From assembly GCA_016758905.1 (NCBI GenBank), contig JAEPQZ010000011.1:826185-890184 (forward strand): a stretch of 64,000 nt of DNA, given 5' to 3'. Within the stretch, counting starts at the first letter, position 1; each line of letters starts with the position of its first letter. Shown here piece after piece: positions 10,025-47,236 of the stretch. Made by a program: the position numbers and the translations under genes. A model generated the notes under the pieces. It was given only the letters and a program-made list of their open reading frames with translations. It was not told where the DNA came from and ran no database searches. The stretch comes from Umbelopsis isabellina (taxonomy: Eukaryota > Mucoromycota > Umbelopsidomycetes > Umbelopsidales > Umbelopsidaceae).

Positions 10025-10378
10025 TCACACATTCAGTGGTAATCGCATAACACTGTCCCGATGTCGAATGGCATAGAGAAAGCATGTCACTGAGTCGGCT
10101 TCCTTAACAGTCTGGTTCAAAAAGTGCCTTGATATGGCTTGAACAAGCTCTTCTCTATCGGCATTCTTGCTTCTCGTCTTGATCTTGTAAACTCGTTTGT
10201 ACTTGCGCAGAACACTGGTTTCCACTGTATCAAAGTCGATTGTTTGGAACTCCTTGCTAAGAGTAGCTGGCTTGGACCTTTTATCTCTTTCTCTCTCCCT
10301 ATTATCATTGGTTTGTCTCATAGATGAATTCGAAGGTAGGTAAGCTGTTGATTGCTGCTTTGGTTTCGAGTTACCCAT
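10025..10378 (-). CDS. SAP30-like Sin3-binding protein
   Basis: Small Sin3-associated protein, expected to bridge Sin3 to the histone deacetylase complex. Single exon, 117 aa, ATG at 10378-10376. Residues 1-45 are polar and disordered. Residues 46-110 form the SAP30 Sin3-binding domain: FQTIDFDTVETSVLRKYKRV, YKIKTRSKNADREELVQAIS, RHFLNQTVKEADSVTCFLYA. This aligns by eye with the C-terminal domain of human SAP30 (DF..L....LR+YKR..K+.TR....+.+LV..+..HF....V.E.D..T.F+Y). The N-terminal zinc-finger module of animal SAP30 is absent, as in fungal members. It shares a roughly 165-base divergent promoter with the gene at 10543. Confidence 0.85.
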   Translation of the reverse strand: MGNSKPKQQSTAYLPSNSSMRQTNDNRERERDKRSKPATLSKEFQTIDFDTVETSVLRKYKRVYKIKTRSKNADREELVQAISRHFLNQTVKEADSVTCFLYAIRHRDSVMRLPLNV

Positions 10379-10542
10379 TAGCGGAAGAGGTGGTCAAAGT
10401 GTCCGAAAGAAAAAAGCTTTTCGTGGCAGAGAAGCTATAACCGTGTCTGACGGAATCTAAATTCCCGTGAGACAGGTTAAAACTCAGTCAATTGCCAGTA
10501 TGTCATGAGGTTTGACGGCTTCTTCCATTCTTTCAAAGTTAC

Positions 10543-11471
10543 ATGCAGACAACGACTTGGACTCTTCCAACAGTCAGTGAGTAGCAAAAACTTCTGTTGA
10601 CGGAATGAAAGTATAATGAACGATCGTTTTCTTATATCTTTTGTTATCGTCTCTATATAGACAAAAGCACAACTCGATTCACTCCCACCATCGTCAAAGG
10701 CCGTCGTCATTCCGCTCCCGCTGCGAGAGCTGAGCTGTCTGTCAACGCTGTCGATATCAAAAATGAGAGTAGGGCCATTGTTAGGCCCAAAGTCAAAGAA
10801 TCGATAAGTGAGCCTGAACGTAAGTTGAAATCGGCGGATTATCTTTTTGGGGCGCTTCGTACACCCAGGGGATATTATAAGAAAAGATCTGTGCACCTGT
10901 AATCTAACTCATCTCTGGCAATACTTACTTGGTACAGGGAACCACAGTGGAAGTTCATCTCATCCAAAATCCATATTGAAGCGAGAAAGTCAAGGGAAAC
11001 CAGCTTTATCTCATTCTCGAAGAGTGAGATTCCCTTCACCCGACATTGATTTGTCTATCGTCAAACAAAAGACCAGACGTACTTCGGCAAATCGGAATTT
11101 GCAACCCTTCAATTGGATGGCAAAACGGCCAAAGAGGAAAGCAAGAAAGGTTGATATTGATCGCTTATTGGAAGAAGATGTTGCAGGTGATGATGACTGG
11201 GATATCATCGATATTGAGGACACATCGGATCACAGTCTGAAAGAAATTAGAAACAGAGAAAAAGGCGTTGATTCAACTATAACCTTGAAAGAAAAGTAAT
11301 TATGACTCAATTGACTGCGAGATCCACACACCTTTTTATTAACATATTTATTCAAGCCCATTTGCGCCTCAAATTCGGCTGAAAGATGGTCGTATTGTCC
11401 TGGAGACTGGCCATGATTCTTCATCAGCTATAAGCAATGAACCGGAAACAATGGAAATTGTAGAAGAATAA
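10543..11471 (+). CDS. Hypothetical protein with PP1-docking motifs (SILK and RVxF)
   Basis: Four exons: 10543-10576, 10661-10819, 10938-11295, 11357-11471; phases agree and give 221 aa starting MQTTTWTLPTVNKSTTRFTP. No folded domain is recognised. Exon 3 contains KSILKR and, 14 residues later, RRVRFPSPDID. These match the [GS]IL[RK] and [RK]VxF motifs that together dock regulators onto protein phosphatase 1. A basic block (MAKRPKRKARK) looks like a nuclear localisation signal and is followed by an acidic stretch (EEDVAGDDDWDIIDIED). The C-terminus has PFAPQIRLKDGRIVLE, which resembles the short motif before the SANT domain of TFIIIB subunit Bdp1, but no SANT domain follows before the stop. 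Likely nuclear PP1 regulator; identity unresolved. Confidence 0.72.
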
Positions 11472-26561: not shown

Positions 26562-27293
26562 ATGGCTGATCTTGAATCAAAGCAAGAGCATTCCTATTAC
26601 ACTACTCCTGCTCCTGCACCAGCACCTGTGCCAGCTCCAGCACAACAAGTCATTGCTAACCCTGGTCCTCTTGGCCTCTGCGGATTTGCATTGACTACCT
26701 TTGTGCTGTCACTGCACAATGCTGGTGCTGGTGTACCTGCCGCTGGTCCCAGCAATGTTGTAGTTGGCCTTGCCTTTTTCTATGGTGGTCTCGTCCAGGT
26801 AAAGTATGATTGTGTATGTCTGTCATTTGCGCTCTTGTGCTCATTGTTTTTCAATTAGCTTTTGGCTGGTATGTGGGAATTCAAGACTGGTAATACCTTT
26901 GGTGCCACAGCATTCTCTAGCTATGGTGGTTTCTGGTTGTCCTTTGGCTTGATCTTTGTACCTGGTGCTGGTATCCTTGATGGTTATGCAAAGTCCTCCA
27001 CCCAAACTCTGGAAAACTCGCTTGGTATCTACCTTCTTGGTTGGACTATCTTCACTGGTATCATGCTTATTGCTAGCCATCGATCCACTGGAGGACTCGT
27101 GGCGCTCTTCTTCTTCCTTTTCATCACCTTCGTCCTTTTGACAGCTTCCAAGTTCAATGCCAATACTACTCTTCAAGTTGCTGGTGGTGCATTTGGTGTT
27201 GTTACTGCTATTATTGCTTGGTATAACGCTCTGAGCGGTCTTTTGACCAAGGAGAGCAGCTACTTTTCTCTCCCTACCGTCCCTCTCCGTTAA
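26562..27293 (+). CDS. GPR1/FUN34/YaaH family (acetate/ammonium export) membrane protein
   Basis: Homologue of yeast Ady2/Ato1 and Yarrowia Gpr1, six-helix plasma-membrane proteins involved in acetate uptake and adaptation to acetate. Two exons (26562-26798, 26859-27293) joined in phase, 223 aa; Ady2 is 283, the difference being a shorter N-terminus. The tail is an Ala-Pro repeat ([14 protein letters not shown]). The family signature [18 protein letters not shown] marks the start of helix 1, followed by [20 protein letters not shown], the conserved [20 protein letters not shown], and helices with [32 protein letters not shown] and a small C-terminal loop. Codon choice is biased, hinting at good expression. 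Confidence 0.93.
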
Positions 27294-34857: not shown

Positions 34858-35585
34858 ATGACAGTAGAGACGGATACAACGGGAAAGCCGGAAGCGAAGG
34901 ACGCTTCCAGGGCTAAGCATGGACCTGAAAGTGGCATGTCCATTTACATTGATCCTGTCACAGGTCAAAAGATTCCAATGAAGGACGGAAAGCCATGTCG
35001 CACCTGCATTGACATGAAGACTTGGAAACGACTCGGCAAGGTTGCTTCTGCCAAAGACGCTGCCGAGAGCCCAAAAACCACCGAGGATGGCAAGAAAGAT
35101 GCCACAAAATCTGTAGCAGAGTCTAATGCTACAGCAAAAAGCGTCTCTCCAGCCGATGATACCGAATGGCGACGAAAGAACTGCCCTCCCGATGTGGAAG
35201 CTCTTGGCAGCTCCACGTGGACTCTATTGCATACCATGGCAGCTTATTATCCTGAAAGACCCGCTCCATCACAGATGGACTCTATGAAGATGTTCTTTGA
35301 GGGATTTGCTCAACACTACCCTTGCTGGTTTTGTAAAGTAAGTTATAAAGCTTCTTCCATTGTCTATGGCAAAAGCCATGTATTAAAGCCTAAGCTCTTC
35401 TACAGGGTGATTTTCAAAAGTCAGTCGCTGCCAATCCAATACAAGTTGGTAGCAGGAAGAAGCTCAGTCAATGGCTTTGTGACCGTCATAATGAAGTGAA
35501 CGAGAAACTTGGAAAGCCCAAATTTGACTGTACCAAAGTATTTGAACGCTGGTTGGAAGGTCCACCAAATGGCAAATGCGATTAA
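34858..35585 (+). CDS. ERV1: FAD-linked sulfhydryl oxidase Erv1/ALR
   Basis: Mitochondrial intermembrane-space oxidase that re-oxidises Mia40 and passes electrons to cytochrome c. Two exons (34858-35337 and 35406-35585), 219 aa; yeast Erv1 is 189. The N-terminal arm carries the shuttle disulphide in KPCRTCIDMKTWKRL. A long charged linker leads to the catalytic domain: CPPDVEALGSSTWTLLHTMA for FAD binding, then the active-site CXXC in HYPCWFCKGDFQKS at the exon junction, then SQWLCDRHNEVNEKLGKPKF with the CX2HNXVN flavin motif, and the structural DC before the end. All cysteines expected for Erv1 are present. Only 130 bases separate its ATG from that of SKI3 on the other strand. Confidence 0.95.
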
Positions 35586-35780: not shown

Positions 35781-36875
35781 ATGTTACTTGACATTGCTCC
35801 TGAATTAACCAACGCAATATTTTCATTTCTGTCAATACAGGACTTATATTATGTGAGAGGAGTTAGCAAACGGTGCCAGGCCGTAGCTGAACAAGCCATT
35901 TGGAATCACACTTCTCGGAGTGAGCATACCATTCTACAATTCGGCGACAAGGATAGTGGCAAGAATCTTAATCTTTACCCACATACCTACGACGCCGAAC
36001 ACAGGGTAGTAGAGTTTCGACCAAAAACCATAGAGCCGATTAGCCTAACCGACCGATCAGCTGCCTCGGGTGACTTGATGATACGAACTTTCAGATTATG
36101 GTTCAGTGGGTGGCAAAAGCATGATTTTCTAGGAGGCGCCAATTGGACCGAGGTTGAACCAAAATTGAATGCATTCGATCGCGCACACATGCTTTTTCAC
36201 GGCACGTATAATCCTGCTCACGAAAAAGTTTACATTCTACCCTCAGTCCATGATCCCGGCCCGCCCCGACGTACTCGTTACGTCGGAGATGCAGACATGG
36301 TCTTATCGCTGTATTATACAAGCAGAGGAGACGATGTGATGCAGTGGAATTATGCTAGGACTACAGATACCCAGTCCACTGTCACAGCTCTGGCACCTCC
36401 ACCAGAGCGTTCAGCCAACATAACCTCTCTCAAAGTTTCCATATCATGGATTATGTCTGGCATCCAGACCAATGTTTACACCATCGAGCTTTATGATTCG
36501 TACCGTCGCCATCTCCACGATACGTTGTCATCGAATTTGGCCTTCAATTATGATCCAAATTGCGAGCAGGTTCTGGAATGGCTGTTATCTGACAATGCTA
36601 GCAATGCCATTGTTCCCCATCAGCTGATTACATTTTTGAAGGAGCATACGCATGAATCGCTTTCAAGACAGGCGGAGCTGCAACGACTGCTAGAGAGCGC
36701 AGGAGTTGATGCTTCTGTTTTGTGGAAATATGGGTTTGCTAAACGGTGGTTGGCCGGAAAAGCTGCTTTCGAGCCTGAAGACGTGGTGCGGCGGATACAG
36801 ATGACCGAGGAGAATTGGCATAAGGACCAGCAGTCTTTGAGACGACAACTGGCTAAAGAGAATATATCAATTTGA
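35781..36875 (+). CDS. F-box protein
   Basis: Single-exon gene of 364 aa. The N-terminal F-box (MLLDIAPELTNAIFSFLSIQ, DLYYVRGVSKRCQAVAEQAI) should bind Skp1 and place the protein in an SCF ubiquitin ligase. The rest has no repeat or recognisable substrate-binding domain: a beta-rich middle (VYILPSVHDPGPPRRTRYVG; NITSLKVSISWIMSG) and a helical C-terminus (ELQRLLESAGVDASVLWKYG, VVRRIQMTEENWHKDQQSLR). The open frame extends 17 codons upstream from a TTG, but the ATG right before the F-box is the likely start. Substrate unknown. Confidence 0.78.
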   Translation: MLLDIAPELTNAIFSFLSIQDLYYVRGVSKRCQAVAEQAIWNHTSRSEHTILQFGDKDSGKNLNLYPHTYDAEHRVVEFRPKTIEPISLTDRSAASGDLMIRTFRLWFSGWQKHDFLGGANWTEVEPKLNAFDRAHMLFHGTYNPAHEKVYILPSVHDPGPPRRTRYVGDADMVLSLYYTSRGDDVMQWNYARTTDTQSTVTALAPPPERSANITSLKVSISWIMSGIQTNVYTIELYDSYRRHLHDTLSSNLAFNYDPNCEQVLEWLLSDNASNAIVPHQLITFLKEHTHESLSRQAELQRLLESAGVDASVLWKYGFAKRWLAGKAAFEPEDVVRRIQMTEENWHKDQQSLRRQLAKENISI

Positions 36876-38614
36876 GAGTAGTTAAACCAGCTAGAGGTGT
36901 AGATTGGTTAGTATTTAACATTGTAAATATATGCAAGAGTGCCATCATGTATATGTGGCTCGTACTGGGAACCTATACAATATTTGTATATATATCTCTA
37001 ATTAACTTCATATTATCTTTAAACAAGACTATGGATTTGCTATGGGTTGCTTTCAGTTACAATGTTTTCGGATGGCTTTTAAGCGTTGGCATTCCATATT
37101 TTGAGCGGGGAAACTGAGCTGGGATAAAATTATTGGAAGTCCACTAACAAATTGGCATCTGAGCTATCAAGCCAGCCTCTAATGAATAAAGCCGTACATT
37201 GTATGAGGCAAAGTTCGGTACAAAGAAACGGTTATAATATGCTGGCTATGCTGGACATAAAGCAATAGTTCAGCAACTTAACCCTACTCAACCTTTTCTG
37301 ATGTTGTGTCACACTACATGATCTAACCTTCAAATAAGGATTCGTTAGTTTTGGTGGAATTAAATAGACACCTGTGGCAGTTTTAAGCCTTTTCTGGTTT
37401 CTACAGCGGACCTCATATTCTCATTGGCTTGATTTCTTTGCTTTCTTGTCAGCGAAATTGCTTTCTTTTCTGCTTGCTACTTGATTCATGCGATTAAACA
37501 TAGATAATCTGCTTTATCACCATGTCACCTTCAACTCCATCTGTGACTCAATAAAAGATTTTGCATGGAAGCAGTCCCGCCTGAAGAGTATAAACTGGCA
37601 GGCTATTCCATGAGTTTTTTGTTCTTTTTAACCGCTTATTAGAACAAAAAACGCAAAGTCCTCAATTGGACAGATGAAATATCCGTGTCGTGGGTCGGAT
37701 GCATCGATCTCAGCGACTAGATCAAGACTGTCATTATTTGTCTGAAGGCTCCCTGCGACAGCCCTTCGGATGTCTTGATCTAGGGAACCAGGTCCTTCTA
37801 AGGGAAGAGTTCTAAGGCACAACCATTGAGTTGCGGAATAGCAACATTCCTTAGGACCTTGAGTTCTGAGGTCATGGCTGCCTTAAGCCATCTGATGAGA
37901 CCTTTGGCATGGTCGAAACCTCAAAAATCTCATTTTCTCTTTTCACTATTCTCCTCTCATGTTTTCTTAAATAAAAATTTTTAGAGATTATGAGTAAAAT
38001 TATTCACATAATAAATTTTGGCTGCACAATTCTTTGCCTATATTACTTTGTTACAACTCTCGATCGTACCCTGTGAAGCTTTAATAACAAGGTAGACCAT
38101 ACTCTTTAGAGTGCCACAGGGAGACTTTCAAACTGCTCCAGCTCTCTCGCTTCTGGAGCAGAAGCCCTAGCTGACCTGGTCCGAAGGATCAGAAGTTCAC
38201 TGACAATGCTGCACTACGCAAATGTTGGCTATTGCTAAATTGCGCCGTCGCGTGAGCGAAGTAGGCTCTATTAACTTGACAACACCTGACGACTTGCTCT
38301 TATTGGCTCAAATATATTTCTCTTTCCATTAAATATGTCTTCTCTTTGCCTACTTCTTTGACAAACCGCCTATAGATAGCTCACCGGATTTCGGACGACG
38401 TCATGTTGTGATTTATGGGATAATTTCGTTCCAGCTCTGCGAAGAGCAAATCAATCTGTTTATTTTACAGTGTTTTTAAGAATTTTTGAAAAACAATTTG
38501 GCAATTAAAAGCGGGACATAAGACGTACAAGGAAGTATAGGTCTAAAGGTCAATTATAATACAGCTTTTCAATCACGTTTGAATATCTTGATTATATAGT
38601 ACAGATAGACGCGT
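36876..38614. other. Long non-coding interval between F-box gene and topoisomerase III
   Basis: Both flanking genes end here (convergent), so promoters are not expected, yet the interval is 1.7 kb. It contains the hairpin run at 37564-37902 and a second hairpin cluster at 38069-38259 (TGCTCCAG/CTGGAGCA, CTGGTCC/GGATCAG, CCCTGTG/CACAGGG, TCGC-GTGA-GCGA). The open frames at 36872-37117 and 37628-37822 start at non-ATG codons and look like noise. Confidence 0.5.
37564..37902. ncRNA. Candidate structured non-coding RNA locus
   Basis: Inside 1.7 kb without a supported ORF, a run of nested or adjacent helices fills about 340 bases. 1: CATGGAA/TTCCATG (37564-37570, 37606-37612), with GCCTG/CAGGC inside. 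2: an 11-bp arm (37615-37625 with 37641-37651). 3: ATCCG/CGGAT (37681-37700). 4: CTAGATCAAGAC/GTCTTGATCTAG (37717-37728, 37772-37783), a perfect 12 bp enclosing a 10-bp helix (37741-37750 with 37760-37770) that has a G-T pair and one bulge. 5: AGGTCC-TTC-TAAGG with CCTTAGGACCT (37790-37803, 37849-37859), enclosing GTTGC/GCAAC. 6: GGTC-ATGGCT with AGCCAT and GACC (37870-37902). Strand and boundaries are unknown. I could not match it to RNase P, MRP, SRP or U3. Confidence 0.45.
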
Positions 38615-41600
38615 CTATCGTTTATTACGGGTAGGACAGAGTGGGGCATAATGGCCAGGCTGTAAAATAACAAAGCAAATTAGAAACCAACACATACACC
38701 AATGACGCATGTATGAAGCTTACCTTTCCACAGAGATAACAATTGTTGCCTCCTCCATTGGCTTGGAAATTATTGGCAGGTCTAGCTTGATTGTTATCTT
38801 CCACAAGTTCATAAAAGTTGCATCGAGAGATCCTGGATTCTTGAGGACAAGTATAGAACATCTTGCCGGCGTTGGCACTAGTTGTCTTCTTGATTGTTTT
38901 AGTAACCGCTGTTAATCCACATTGACACACCTTTCGCTGGCCAGAAGAGCCACCAGCTTTCTCGTGTACAGATCTATATGTTTTCATCGTGGTTGGAGAC
39001 TAAAATTTTCAAAGAAAACATGTTGAGGCATTGAAATGACCATTTTCTCCATACGTCAATAATGGAAACTTACAGTGTTCATAGCAATGGCTTGGGTCGC
39101 TGAAAAAGGAGTATCTTGAAATTCAAAAAACCCACATCCCGACCCATCTTGTTCAAAATCAGCTGCACATTTGAAGAAAGTTCTGCCTTTGTTAGGTCCA
39201 TCCCTAGTCACGTTCCTTTGTATGGTAGATTCTCCGCATGAACATTTTGGTACAACCGTGGCTTCGACAGTGGGTACATTAGATGGTGGAGGTGGTCGAC
39301 GGCTTTGTGTTTTCAACTCATCCTCCCAAGCAAAGTATTGGCATCTTGTAGAATGACCATTCGGCGTTGAACAAGAATAAAATATCCTGCCATGGTTTAG
39401 GCCATGATTTGTTACTAGTCGACCAATAGTTGGTTTATTGCAGTCGCATTTTGGGCCATCTTTTGGTGGCCTTTCATCCGTCCACACAAAGTATTCACAA
39501 TCGTTTAGACTGTTGACACAACGATAAAAGTCACGGCCCTTGTTTGGTCCTTCCTTCTTCGCTGTCATGCGGCCTGTGGGCAAACCACACTTGCAGTTAG
39601 GATTATTTTGATTTCCACTATTTGGTCCCGGAAGCCCGAAACTATTTGACCTGTGGTTATCATCATTATTTCTTGGTCCTCTCCTTCCTCCTCCTCCAGC
39701 GGAACCGCCGTTTTCACCACCCCATGGTGAAGGAGGACCTCCGGGTGGTGGATTCCCAGGTGGCGGCGGACGACCATTACCGCTACCATTGGCATGATTG
39801 CTTCCATCACCATTTGCGCCTAGTTGTTTATGGAAGGAGTCAATTATTTTTTGGAACTCATTGCTTGTCTTCATAAACATGTTGCGGTATCGTAGAACAC
39901 TCTGTTGCACTACATTGTCCTTGGTTTTCTGGCCTTCACATATCCGTTTTAAATCGACCTCCATCTCGCGACGTAAAAACGGCTTGCTTAAACTCATATC
40001 GAGGCCAATTTCATCGTAGCCCAGAACCAGAGCAATGCCGGTGCTAGTAGGATGAAAGTATATTCCTTGCTTGAGAGCGTAGTCGCGACTTAGGACAGTC
40101 TTGATATGCTCGTGAATCGTAGCATCTGTTCCAATTTCATTCTTTTCCATGAGACCGATGAGATCAGTCTCCGTCAACATGTTTGGTGCAGTGGTGTGAG
40201 ATTCAGTCATTTCAAAAATAGTGGGTATAAAAGTCTGGTTTTGTTGAAAGTTGGGTATTTGTGATCCAGACCATTTATCATAAGTATAAATGTCGAGATA
40301 ATTGCGCTCCAAAATGACCAAGCCCTTGGTATCAAATTGCTCTTCAGCAATGTCAATTTCTACCACTGTTTCTGACCCTTTGGCATCTTTAGAACAAGCA
40401 GCTAGAAACGATCGGGCAATGAACTCATATACTCTTCGTTCCTTGCCGGTAAGTCCGTCGCCAGGTGCGGTGGGATGGATAGGAGGATGGGCTTTGTCGT
40501 TGTTACGACCTGTTCTTGGCCGCTCAAATCCCGTGTCTAACAGTTGTTGGGCATACCTACCCAATGCACGATCTTCACATTGCTTGGCAATGAAGTTTTT
40601 CAAGTCAAAATTTCCATCGAACTGATCAGTCTCTGTTCTTGGATAGCTAATGAATCCTTTGGTATACAAGTTTTCAGCCACCTTCATGATATCGTCGGAA
40701 GTCATATTAAGTATACGACAGGCCTTCTTGGTCATCTCGATCGTGGTCAATGGCAGTGGTTTCCTGTGAACATCGCGGTGTCAGTTTAATCAACTTGCAA
40801 GGATGGCTTATTCATACGAACTTACCATTTAGATGTGAACTTTTCTTGCACTCGAGTTACAAGTGCTACTGGATTTTTCATACATTTGTCATACAGAACG
40901 AAACACATTCGGCGATCAAAGAGATGGCCCCGCTTCCAATTAAACGTAGTTTTCAGAAAATTTTCGTTTTGCCCAGTACCATACTGGTTTTGTGTTGGTT
41001 GATTGTGGCGAACATCCAGTTTCCAGAACTTCTCAGGCACGAAATTTTTCACCGCCAAATGCCTATCCACAATAAATCCTAAAGTGGGAAATTGGCAACT
41101 ACCATAGCTGATGACCTTTTTCTCCATCGAGTTGAAAGAGGATTGTATCCTTAAGGACTGAAGGCGAGTAAATGCTGCTCCTATTCGTAAATCTAGTTCT
41201 CTCCTAGCTTTCACTGCATTGACAGTTCGCATATCGAGTTCCGAAGGAGTTTGTGCTGCACGGTTGAGGTCTCTGTATATAAATGTATCAGCAAATAGAA
41301 ATCAAAATTTTCAGCAATGTGTTGTGAGCACGTACGCATATTGCATGGCTGAAAAGCGGGCTCGCCATACTTGAATGTTTCGGCGAACAGATTGACAAAT
41401 CTCGGCCACATCAAATCCAATTGCCTCGCCTTCTCGATCACAATCTGTCCAAATAAATAATACGTCTGCGCTTCGAATCTCTGTTCTCAAATTCTTAGCA
41501 ACATTTTCATTGTCCTCAGGAATAGAGGTCACGAGTGGTGCCTCGAACAGTGTATCTATGGGGCAGGACTTCCAACCTCGGTACTGTTCAGGGAAGTCGA

Positions 41601-42419: not shown

Positions 42420-44573
42420 ATGCCTTACATTTCGGCAAAGCTTTTATATACGTTTTTGTTCGCATGTCAAGGCTCGGCTCCAGTGTACCTTGCGCTTTTT
42501 TATTCCGAGCAGCTTGGGCTAAAGCGGGACCAAATAGGCATATTGGCAGCTATCGGTAACTTTTCTTGGCTATTTATGACACTACAGCATGACCATTCAC
42601 AAACCTAACGCCTCTTGTGTTCGTTTATAACAGCTCCGTTTGTATCAGCTATTGCCTGTCCATTATGGACGGCTGTTGCAGATAAGACGAAGACACACCG
42701 CTATATCATGTGTATCATACATACTCTTGCTACCATTGCCATTGTGAGTGTCATGGGCATCCCTGTGCTGGTACAAAGTATCGAGGACGAAAAAGCTCGC
42801 AACTCTCTCACCATTGTCTTAGCCGGAGCGGCCTCTTTATGCTTTGCATTCTTTGGTGTTCCGGTAGGCCCATTAGTCGATGGTGGTGTTCTCAAAATTT
42901 TAGGAAAGAACAAGGATCAGTATGGTAAGTGAAAGAAGCGGAACGCTAAGTTATACAGCAATTGGTTGTTCGGATGAGGCGAGCACTAAGCAATATTTTA
43001 CCAAATAGGCCGACAAAGAATGTTTGGGTCGATTTCGTTTGGCATTGCATCGTCGCTCGTCGGAGCCATTGCAGATTGGACGCAAGACATGAATGCGATA
43101 TTTTATGTATATGCAACGTCATCTGTATTCTTCATACTAGTGGCAGGCAACACATTCTTTAAAGCGGAAAAAGTCGAACTTATAGCTGGGGCAAAACCAT
43201 TCCTGATGCGTCCCAGTTCTCGCAGTAGTGGGTTCCGAGCCAGTCCATCAGCCGTAGGCTCGGATCTCCGATCCAACCCAGAAGCTGACGGATCAAGAGC
43301 GCGGCGGAAGGTCATTAGCCGGTTTTCGGTACAAGATCCTGATATCCCAGATATTGAGAGCAGTGATGAAGAGGACCTCATTCCCATTCGTGAAAATGAA
43401 ATACAGCGATTGGTGCAGTTTGCTACCGAATCAAGTATTATTGAAGCTGTTAATTTGAGCAATCCTCCGGCGTCACGAAGACGGTCTTCCGCGACCGATA
43501 ATGCATCTATCGACAGTAGCTACAGCGCGCTTGAACCTATACCCACTACATTTTTAGAGTTAATCAAGCAACCTAAAGTATTTCTGTTCTTTATCACCAT
43601 GATGTTGATGGGAGTGGCCATCAACATGGTTCTTAGCTTCTTTTTCATCTTTTTGAGAGATGAGTTGGAAGCTAGTTCAACGCTAACAGGGATGACTGGT
43701 TTGGTTGGAGCTGCCACGGAATTGTTATTTTTCTTCTACAGCAAAGATGTAAGAATATTAAATTTTAATTTTTTTCAAACTACACGCTACCGGTCCCCAT
43801 AATGAGGAAATTACTAACCTAACGCACTAAAAAAGCTAATTCGAGCTATAGGAATCAAAAGCTTAATTGTTCTAGGCCACGTACTGACTATCGTAAGGGT
43901 GTTTGCTTATACACTCTTGCCCAAAAGTCCCAGTGCAGCATGGATTGCTCTTGGTCTTCATCTTCTGAATGGTAACATTGTTTTTTTAATCTGATTTGTC
44001 GGGCATGGTTGAAACTGCATTGAAGTCTAAACTCCGAGTTATTATTTTCTGTCAACAAGGCATCGCATTCTCAGCGTTATGGAGTGCCGGGGTAGTCCAA
44101 GCAGATGAGTTGGCACCACCTTCTCTGCAAGCCACGTCCCAAGGTTAGTTAAAGTGGAGGTACCTTGAAATGGGCTTTTTTCCCATTCATATTACTGCAC
44201 ATTTATTTTGATCCTAAACAACATACATATTTTCCATTTTCTCACGCACGTTCTCATTTGTCATGTAGGAGTACTCGCTGCCATGTACGCAGGAATTGGG
44301 GCAGGCCTGGGAAGTTTAATAGGAGGGGTGGTGTACCAGCACTTTGGAGCCACGGCCATGTTTTATACTGTGATTGCCGTCACGTTATTCAGTTTAGAAA
44401 TCTATTTGGAAGCCAACACACAGTATGGATTGCGAAGCGCCTTCAATGCGACGTCCAAGATTTTGAAAGGTGTATGGCAATGGATCGAATACAAGCGGGG
44501 TCGGGGCCGAGTGGTACCTCGATGGCGAGCAGGCACAGGGGCAATCCGGCTAGAGGATGATGAACAGCAGTAG
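42420..44573 (+). CDS. Major facilitator superfamily transporter, MFS_1-like
   Basis: Six exons: 42420-42555, 42634-42924, 43009-43748, 43836-43971, 44060-44143, 44269-44573; phases agree and give 563 aa. Resembles the MFS_1-like family (MFSD6-type and bacterial nucleoside/sugar permease relatives). The N-terminal half has YTFLFACQGSAPVYLALFYS, LAAIAPFVSAIACPLWTAVA followed by DKTKTHR (the loop 2-3 motif), and GVPVGPLVDGGVLKILGKNK then YGRQRMFGSISFGIASSLVG. A long acidic and serine-rich cytosolic loop (about residues 200-310) separates the halves. The C-terminal half has VFLFFITMMLMGVAINMVLS, IALGLHLLNGIAFSALWSAG and LAAMYAGIGAGLGSLIGGVV. Substrate unknown. It starts 559 bases from the divergent TOP3 start. 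Confidence 0.85.
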
Positions 44574-47236
44574 ACATGATCCTCATTGCAAACTTACAAA
44601 CAACCAGCTGTACATTATACCAATTTAGCATATGTTCACTTGCTTTAATTTTTTTTCTTACTCTACACTAATAAAAAAAAGGACAATGCAATAGCATTGC
44701 AGTTGACAAATATAGGGTGCATTACATGTGCAAAACCGCTTGGTACCGAATGATAATTCGATCTATCTCTGTTGCAATTTATATGATCATGCGGTGCTTA
44801 TTTTCCCTTTTTCGTTGTTCTATACACGTGGAAGCAATCTTATTCTAGCAAGCAATGTATGTATTTCTCACAGACGAAATAGGCTCCGACACTAGTTTCT
44901 GTCGATCGCATTTAAAAAAGCAAACTCCAGCGTGTTCTAGTTGCATACGACATGATTAGTTAATGGAGGAAATTTGGGGAGTGTTTCAAAAAGCAGAATG
45001 GGAGAGAGAGAAGCATGTATGATTAATGAACCGATATTGGGAACTGTCAAGGATCGATCACCATGGTATAAAGTACGTCAGGGCCAATGAGGAACCCTGT
45101 CTGATAGCTTGGTGCGACTTGCGGAGAAAGAAAAGGAAGGTTTGGCGCGCGCGATACGGACAACAGGTTTATTGAATAGCGGTTTTTTTTTAATTATTCT
45201 GATTTCGAAAATAATGGCCGGTGGACCTTTGGCCATGGAGTAAAAATCATCAGCCGGTCTTCGAAAAAAGGCACGAATGTACGACCTAGTGTATATACAT
45301 AACAGTGATTTTGTTCTGCGCTGCGTTATTTACTCCATATTATTTGGTTTAGATTTTATCTGGTCTCTTGCTAATTTACTTTGGCGGATAATAATTTTTT
45401 AACCTTTTTCCTTCCCAAATTTCCCACTTTTTACAGCCCTCCATTTTGCAAACATTGAAACTCCATTGCTAAGTTACCAAATACGTGCCATGTATCCCTA
45501 TCAGTGTTATTTCAACGAGGTTGGTCAGAGCACACACACAAGTGCAACCCACCACATCACCTAACTTGGCTAATTATTCTAATCGCGTCCTGAAATGCCT
45601 CACTCTAACCCCCCTATAGAAAAATCTCTCGTTTCTCTCTTACTCAACATATTGATAAGCAGGGTTTGATTCAGGTGGATCGTAATGAGAAAATCGGACG
45701 GAATTTAAGGCAAAACTATGGGGGACGATAGATTCCGCTCGGGGCGGGGCTCGCGGGGAAGTTTGATCGGGAAATGGTTTTAACCAAGACGTGAAAAAAA
45801 AAATTGGTCTTTTGAGGCGATATTCGGGGTGGGGGGAGAGGGGATTCTGCGCTTGGAAAAGACGGGAGAAGGCAATTACAAATTGTTGCTTGATATGATG
45901 ATTCCATGTTACTTGGTAAATAAAACAATTCAAAACATATCCAACGCCCAGCAAGATAATAGAAGCCAGAGACAGAGCGGCCAGGTTTTATATTTTGCAC
46001 CACTCACAAAGCAGCAAGCTTTGAGAAAAAAAAGCGCCCAGTTTTCAAAACATTGCACGCTCACCAATGAATTTGATACTCCGGCAGCACACACACTCCA
46101 CGTGGCGGTAGTACGAGTAAGCCTCCACCCTCGCTGCTCTACAAAATGGCTGATCGAGTTTACAAACATCAGGTTCAATTTCACGGCACCATGATAAAGC
46201 GATTGCCGGGTTTGTTGCTGGAATTTTTCCTTGCCTTTTACTGCTCCAAATTAGCTATTGGCTAAAATAAAATATTATTATTGGGCCAAACTTCTCTAAC
46301 ATGATATTTCGGGTGAAACCATTTAGCGAGAAACAAATACATAACGCCGCTACATAACCAGTGAGAGGGGAGAGAGTGATATTCGAACCCTACCAACGGC
46401 AAACGATCGAAGAGAGGATAGGATGGATATACGTTCAGGAACAGAATATGTTTAATGAGTTTTTGGATAATATGGGTGGGTGTACAAGTGGAGGTTATAC
46501 CTTTTAGCCGCCAATAGGATTATCGAAATTTTAGCCGTTCACCGCGAACGGTGGTCCGCTTATAGATCAGATTATGGCCATTATTAACCATGGATGAGGC
46601 ATATTTGCTTCCAAAGCGTCGTAGGCATAGTGATTATGCAGACCTCATTTGAATGTTTAGACCAAACAATCCATGAAAACTAATGTTTCTCCTCTTTCCA
46701 TTGGAAATGTAAATTTCAACCACCCACCATACAGCGTCGTTACCGCTTGTGTTTTTGTGATCGATTGATTGGTTTTCGGGGGGTAGGGTGCAACAGCAGC
46801 AACGGCACAAGTCCTGTCGTCTAATTACTATGTCGGGCAATAGAGCCTATGTTTGTTCGTATTCCGAGCCGCTTAAAGCCTCTACGCAAAACACGGGAAT
46901 GATTAGGCAAGCTTGGGCTATGGGACGGGGGTATCTCCACGTGACTTTGGATGACATCACTTATCTTATGGAACTGAGTGTCGGAGTGTCGAGGATTGAC
47001 GATATGCCATTGGTTAGAAGCCGAGATGAGACCAAAGGAACAGACACTAAAAAAAAAAAACTTATTACCGTCCCGAGCCAAACTCAACATCTAAAGCGGA
47101 ACCAAAAAAAAAAAAAAACGTGCAGGCAAGCCATTATAAAACGAAGACTCGAATTCCGTTAAACTTCTGTTCTCCCGTTTCCTTTCCCTCTCTCTATCTC
47201 CCTCTTTTTCTTCTACCCTCTTTCATAATCTCTGCA
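44574..47236. other. Long intergenic region upstream of the H+-ATPase gene
   Basis: About 2.7 kb. The open frames at 45640-46194 overlap on both strands and match nothing. The proximal part is the H+-ATPase promoter. I see no transposon ends, tRNA or long repeat; several poly(A)/poly(T) runs occur (for example 47049-47060 and 47106-47118). Confidence 0.4.
47134..47236 (+). promoter_or_regulatory. Core promoter and CT-rich leader of the H+-ATPase gene
   Basis: A TATAAAA element at 47134-47140 lies 103 bases before the ATG. It is followed by a long pyrimidine-rich block (47165-47226, for example TCCCGTTTCCTTTCCCTCTC). A TATA box plus CT block just upstream of the start is typical of very highly expressed fungal genes, and the coding region downstream has strongly biased codons. 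Confidence 0.6.

Follow-up and report, generated by a model that had tools for sequence, protein, structure and literature searches.

Predicted type III hammerhead ribozymes behind two conserved structured RNAs in Umbelopsis isabellina

A structured interval and its predicted ribozyme

The window analyzed here, 64,000 nucleotides long, is the final 64 kb of contig C3 in the 22.0-Mb genome of Umbelopsis isabellina (24 contigs). The best match of a neighboring topoisomerase III frame among named sources is Umbelopsis sp. PMI_123, at 56% identity over 100% of the query, and one sequence without a named source reaches 81%. An open-reading-frame scan of the window found no frames of at least 100 amino acids at 36875-38625. 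A protein-coding reading of 37564-37924 was rejected, as zero frames of that size overlap it. The initial annotation had described 37564..37902 as a dense run of hairpins and a candidate structured RNA, and both of the helices it singled out are present: CTAGATCAAGAC (37717-37728) is perfectly complementary to GTCTTGATCTAG (37772-37783) over 12 bp, and AGGTCCTTCTAAGG (37790-37803) forms an 11-bp helix with CCTTAGGACCT (37849-37859) around a three-base bulge. The 339-base interval also folds more stably than shuffled sequence, with z-scores of -4.23 on the forward and -4.75 on the reverse strand and 0/100 shuffles equally stable on either. Across the whole window, 250-base windows starting at 37626 and 37501 (z = -3.94 and -3.86; 20 shuffles each) rank 3 and 6 among 510, so that the fold strength of the interval is unusual, not unique. 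Comparably strong folds lie at 10376-10625, 35001-35250, 26626-26875 and 44501-44750 (z about -3.9 to -4.1), and a hairpin, GCTCCAG...CTGGAGC, is found at 38131-38160 in a fold window with z = -3.0, just 3' of the unit shared with other loci (Table 1).

Scanning an 86-base stretch gave a forward-strand match to the type III hammerhead family RF00008 (38.3 bits, E = 1.4e-7), below the Rfam gathering score of 48.5, which is a curation cut-off and not a chemical feature. The predicted ribozyme reads GAGGUC/AUGGCU GCCUUA AGCCAU CUGAUGA GACC UUUGGCAU GGUC GAA ACCUC (slash, predicted cut). All of the expected core features (CUGANGA, GAA, the A15.1-U16.1 pair and H at position 17) are present in the window copy, and three stems with stem III open are found in the Rfam match, the motif fold and the alignment of copies. 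Position 7 of the hammerhead core may vary. Folded alone, the motif adopts the hammerhead as both its minimum-energy and its centroid structure (z = -2.63; 2/200 shuffles equally stable).

Broader Rfam searches did not recover the motif: there were 0 matches in the whole window at gathering thresholds, and the hammerhead was missed in a scan of 1.7 kb. A scan of the 12 units described below, taken together, also missed the type III hammerhead, returning three weak matches, none above cut-off; a weak type I hammerhead match appeared at C13b only (16.9 bits, E = 4). Scan filters can therefore lose matches, and the absence of RF00008 matches at E ≤ 1 across the genome (68 of 3,535 candidates scored) is taken as a false negative, given the match on the 86-base stretch. 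A complete hammerhead can escape a default Rfam scan.

The hairpins of the initial annotation are thus real, but the conserved structured unit occupies 37655-37924, starting and ending later than proposed; the run's initial hairpin (37564-37612) is missing from the minimum-energy folds of the related copies C8, C23a and C13a, and the end set at 37902 splits the hammerhead in two. The judgment that no known family fits holds for the body (37650-37875; no Rfam family, best E = 3.4) and fails for the 3' end, where the predicted hammerhead lies. The observation was right, its interpretation half so: the structured RNA is conserved but ends in a known ribozyme class.

Table 1. Features of the window copy and of the unit around it
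Feature	Position	Strand	Basis or remark
Unit common to window and C8 copy	37018..38066	+	84% identity
Conserved upstream block	37415..37560	+	Peak 37475-37534; column conservation, 4 copies
Conserved RNA body, predicted upstream cleavage product	37655..37873	+	15/219 columns vary, 4 copies
GAUCUC	37706..37711	+	Predicted post-cleavage partner of 3'-end GAGGUC (37868-37873); closes three-way junction
Body hairpin 1 (perfect 12-bp arm and inner helix)	37717..37783	+	
Body hairpin 2 (11-bp helix, three-base bulge)	37790..37859	+	
Predicted type III hammerhead ribozyme	37866-37924	+	RF00008 match, fold of motif alone, 12-copy alignment
Hammerhead stem III	37867-37872 with 37918-37923	+	Stem III open
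Predicted cut site	between 37873 and 37874	+	Expected from hammerhead match
Hammerhead stem I	37874-37879 with 37886-37891	+	
Loop I GCC, possible kissing partner of loop II GGC	37880-37882; 37906-37908	+	Standard pairs possible
Hammerhead core CUGAUGA	37892-37898	+	
Hammerhead stem II	37899-37902 with 37911-37914	+	
Hammerhead core GAA	37915-37917	+	
Poorly conserved stretch after ribozyme, then AATAAA-containing stretch	37925..38050	+	

Twelve ribozyme loci and two structured bodies

DNA searches placed the ribozyme at 12 loci in the genome, one copy each, dispersed over 10 contigs; the window copy is labeled C3 and the others are likewise named by contig (C8, C23a, C13a and so on). The 28-base core was found with up to three mismatches at 11 loci versus 0 for a reversed control, and the twelfth copy, C5, is degenerate. 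In the 12-row alignment the canonical core is kept in 10 copies, the exceptions being C23a (core nucleotide C3 to G) and C5 (G12 to A); C13a has an intact core and mismatches in stems II and III. Standard pairs fill 90.1% of 192 pair cells and three pairs are changed on both sides, a modest covariation whose score is reached by 10/500 shuffles. A GCC/GGC contact between loops I and II is possible in 12/12 copies, once as a G-U variant, and counts as weak support because the loops are nearly invariant; such a loop pseudoknot is described as important for hammerhead speed (PMC3088659). No second ribozyme was found at any locus on either strand, the next best model match having E = 7.6 (165 kb searched). 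In IMG/VR the exact 28-base core had 0 matches, and a looser hammerhead pattern occurred in 92 IMG/VR stretches and one bacterial contig.

Four loci (C3, C8, C23a and C13a; group A) have about 0.8-1 kb in common with the window, and their conservation is very uneven. Variable columns number 75/170 at 37245-37414, 15/60 at 37415-37474, 9/60 at 37475-37534 and 49/120 at 37535-37654, fall to 15/219 in the body and 4/51 in the rest of the ribozyme, and rise to 49/66 at 37925-37990 and 28/60 at 37991-38050. The step from the body and ribozyme to the sequence directly after them indicates that the conserved block ends with the ribozyme. Folding energy and conservation within the genome both came out in favor of a structured RNA, and the claim of selection on RNA can be upheld for 37655-37924 by the pattern across these four paralogous copies. 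Its original grounds, the G-T pairs and bulges, proved a weak sign: 0/96 pairs predicted by RNAalifold are changed on both sides in the four copies, so folding energy and conservation, and not covariation, support the fold of body A. The variable columns of the body number 15: 5 are in unpaired positions, 4 leave pairing intact in every copy and 6 disrupt it in one copy. Ribozymes are damaged at two of the four loci (C23a and C13a) and the bodies there are still conserved, which suggests that the body may matter without the cut.

The conserved upstream block is probably a promoter and/or the 5' part of the transcript. A 29-mer from it matches the genome at the four group-A copies only, and a promoter common to other genes was rejected on that basis. 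By eye, ATTGG (37423-37427) and TGACTCA (37544-37550) are each seen in three of the four copies; a scan for sigma-70-type promoters and terminators is not meaningful for a fungus. Downstream of the ribozyme, AATAAA occurs at 37970-37975 and 38010-38015 (by eye), and the stretch containing it may end the primary transcript. Inspection by eye for snoRNA boxes found none that were convincing. A ribozyme is reportedly located near a yeast telomerase RNA; copy number argues against a telomerase RNA identity here, and the best 15 of 45 open-access literature matches included no paper on such a ribozyme.

At seven further loci (group B: C23b, C1, C13b, C7, C22 and the decayed C19 and C5) a different structured body stands in front of the same ribozyme. 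That groups A and B are one was rejected, as their body profiles do not find each other above chance. A profile of body B built from C23b, C1, C13b and C7 with the ribozyme left out finds C5 (E = 2.3e-18), C19 (7.2e-12) and C22 (1.5e-11) directly before their ribozymes (E-values over the loci searched). For the pair analysis, five of the seven copies were aligned, the 5' parts of C19 and C5 being unalignable. Among 101 RNAalifold pairs, count_structure_pairs scores 35 as differing at both positions in one or more sequences (RNAalifold's own count, 34) versus 18.8 ± 2.9 in shuffles; 0/500 shuffles reach as high a count, and slid controls give at most 10, a comparison in which the predicted structure has an advantage, being derived from the same five sequences. 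A helix, GCUCA/UGAGC, closes body B just before the ribozyme, and in two group-B pairs the similarity begins abruptly near -360. Against Rfam, body B of C22 has weak miRNA-hairpin matches only (best 22.4 bits versus a cut-off of 90, E = 0.09). With body A and the bodies of C1, C22 and C13b as queries, no ribozyme-free copies of either body were found among the best candidates, which were those scored.

Proposed 3'-end formation and alternative origins

Groups A and B have the same anatomy: a structured RNA, a short linker and a hammerhead. The simplest role of such an arrangement would be 3'-end formation by self-cleavage, and we hold it fairly probable that the loci are genes for non-coding RNAs which acquire their 3' ends in this way, the window RNA being one of four paralogous genes of this kind. 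A transcript would start in or after the conserved upstream block and pass through the body into the ribozyme, which would cut at the predicted site and give the body a defined 3' end in place of a poly(A) tail. Hammerheads leave a 2',3'-cyclic phosphate, which the new end of the body would presumably carry. The freed GAGGUC would then leave stem III of the ribozyme and pair with GAUCUC, closing the body's three-way junction; with this re-pairing, the end would be shielded and the cut could not easily be undone. When the 219-nt product is folded, GAGGUC lies on GAUCUC in C3, C8 and C13a, not in C23a, and RNAalifold of the four copies agrees.

Predicted folds of longer transcripts complicate this mechanism. 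The minimum-energy fold lacks the whole hammerhead in 11/11 long transcripts (C5 left out), and enforcing it costs 1.4-13.4 kcal/mol; with 60 nt of upstream sequence, only C1 among the 11 folds freely into the hammerhead. In the window copy the predicted competitor is 37683-37705, which pairs with the ribozyme core. Cleavage may take place co-transcriptionally, ahead of any competing fold; it may also be gated, or be absent in some copies.

At the C4 locus the ribozyme lies about 290 nt past the stop codon of the ribosomal protein L22 (RPL22) gene. Since the ribozyme both ends the unrelated RNA B and sits behind RPL22, it behaves like a portable 3'-end cassette. As a tentative extension, which we would sooner doubt than adopt, the dispersed hammerhead cassette may mature the 3' ends of two or more unrelated, undescribed conserved structured RNAs, the released end being locked into the body and cleavage perhaps gated by the competing fold; on this view, self-cleaving ribozymes would belong to the host's own RNA processing instead of serving mobile elements. 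The C4 hammerhead (L028 3793-4584) possibly lies within the RPL22 3' untranslated region.

The main rival account, rather unlikely though of some weight, takes the loci for ancient copies, most of them dead, of a non-autonomous retroelement with a hammerhead (retrozyme-like or SINE-like), whose RNA the ribozyme formerly processed and whose remains, perhaps partly recruited by the host, are the bodies. Eukaryotic genomic hammerheads are often described in such elements (PMC3088659, PMC7761336), those of Yarrowia are reported with interspersed repeats (PMC3088659), and plant retrozymes are described as carrying type III hammerheads in long terminal repeats (LTRs) of about 300-400 bp (PMC9695139). 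The dispersal over 10 contigs and the decay of two units (C19 and C5) are consistent with this, and the sharp left edge near -360 in two group-B pairs is the best point for an origin by insertion. Each locus, however, holds a single ribozyme, both in the 165 kb searched and in single matches genome-wide. Nine loci show no clear target-site duplication, their longest flanking direct matches of 5-8 bases being equaled by at least 24/200 shuffles; the edges are fuzzy, and short duplications may have escaped notice. None of 20 frames around the other 11 loci, and none of 6 in the window, encodes a transposon protein, and of six RVT_1 matches in the genome none lies closer than about 349 kb on a common contig. 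The very uneven conservation in group A and the two-sided changes in group B point instead to long selection on RNA. Descent from a retroelement with later recruitment by the host would be consistent with all the data, and also with genes whose 3' ends are made by self-cleavage.

Two further explanations have little to recommend them. Ribozyme-bearing ambiviruses and viroid-like RNAs have been reported from fungi (PMC10237039, PMC13343976), and the interval is self-complementary on both strands, as might be seen if a viroid-like circular RNA or a hammerhead-carrying fungal virus had been copied into the genome; yet the core has no exact IMG/VR match, the sequence shared by group A reaches several hundred bases further upstream than the RNA and has a conservation peak outside the body, and a second ribozyme is absent from these loci on both strands, so that there is no circle-making pair. 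We regard such an origin as highly improbable. That chance hairpins adjoin a degenerate, functionless hammerhead-like motif is scarcely credible and already disfavored: other windows fold equally well and the Rfam score is under the gathering cut-off, but chance would have to yield 12 copies with 10 intact cores against 0 in the reversed control, conservation limits that match those of the RNA, and the two-sided changes of group B.

Relation to known hammerheads and surroundings of the loci

The predicted ribozyme resembles type III members of RF00008 in its CUGAUGA...GAA core, its U16.1-H17 cleavage site, its stems I-III and its open stem III, and differs in its setting, which is the 3' terminus of structured non-coding RNAs and not a viroid or an LTR. 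Eukaryotic hammerheads with a well-understood role mostly serve mobile or infectious RNAs. Plant retrozymes, too, are dispersed, structured units of a few hundred bases, non-coding and bearing a genomic hammerhead of type III; as described in PMC9695139, they have two LTRs with a ribozyme each, a PBS, a PPT and 4-base target-site duplications, whereas we found one ribozyme per locus and, at nine loci, no clear duplications. Penelope-like elements, Terminons and animal retrozymes are also cases of genomic hammerheads in eukaryotes, but theirs are described as type I, often minimal and tandem (PMC7761336, PMC9695139), while those reported here are type III and single, with full stems and no reverse transcriptase nearby. 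The hammerheads of Yarrowia lipolytica also occur as several dispersed copies in a fungal genome; the passages on them in PMC3088659 describe no shared structured body in front, a distinction by description and not by sequence. Among the open-access literature matches listed, there were no hammerheads in Umbelopsis and no hammerhead-ended structured RNAs in fungi. The arrangement is new; its part, the hammerhead, is known. If 3'-end formation by self-cleavage is correct, these loci would clearly exemplify a host that uses a ribozyme to generate RNA ends, and an early-diverging lineage of fungi would gain two hitherto unknown RNA families.

Several features were noted around the loci. The decayed group-B unit C19 lies between the second and third of three consecutive FAD-binding/BBE oxidase frames (L027 3-7935), and a 713-aa frame with an Eco57I-type methylase domain (L030 7362-9500, reverse strand) is located about 2.5 kb from the C22 ribozyme. 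At 5 of the 12 loci, long-period tandem repeats lie upstream of the ribozyme at a distance of up to about 1.8 kb, with periods of 125, 73, 36, 206 and 194 bases (L023 3210-4454; L024 3628-4194, reverse strand; L029 1-831, reverse strand; L030 3752-4191; L021 3380-3733), and the arrays at C1 and C5 are alike and in opposite orientation.
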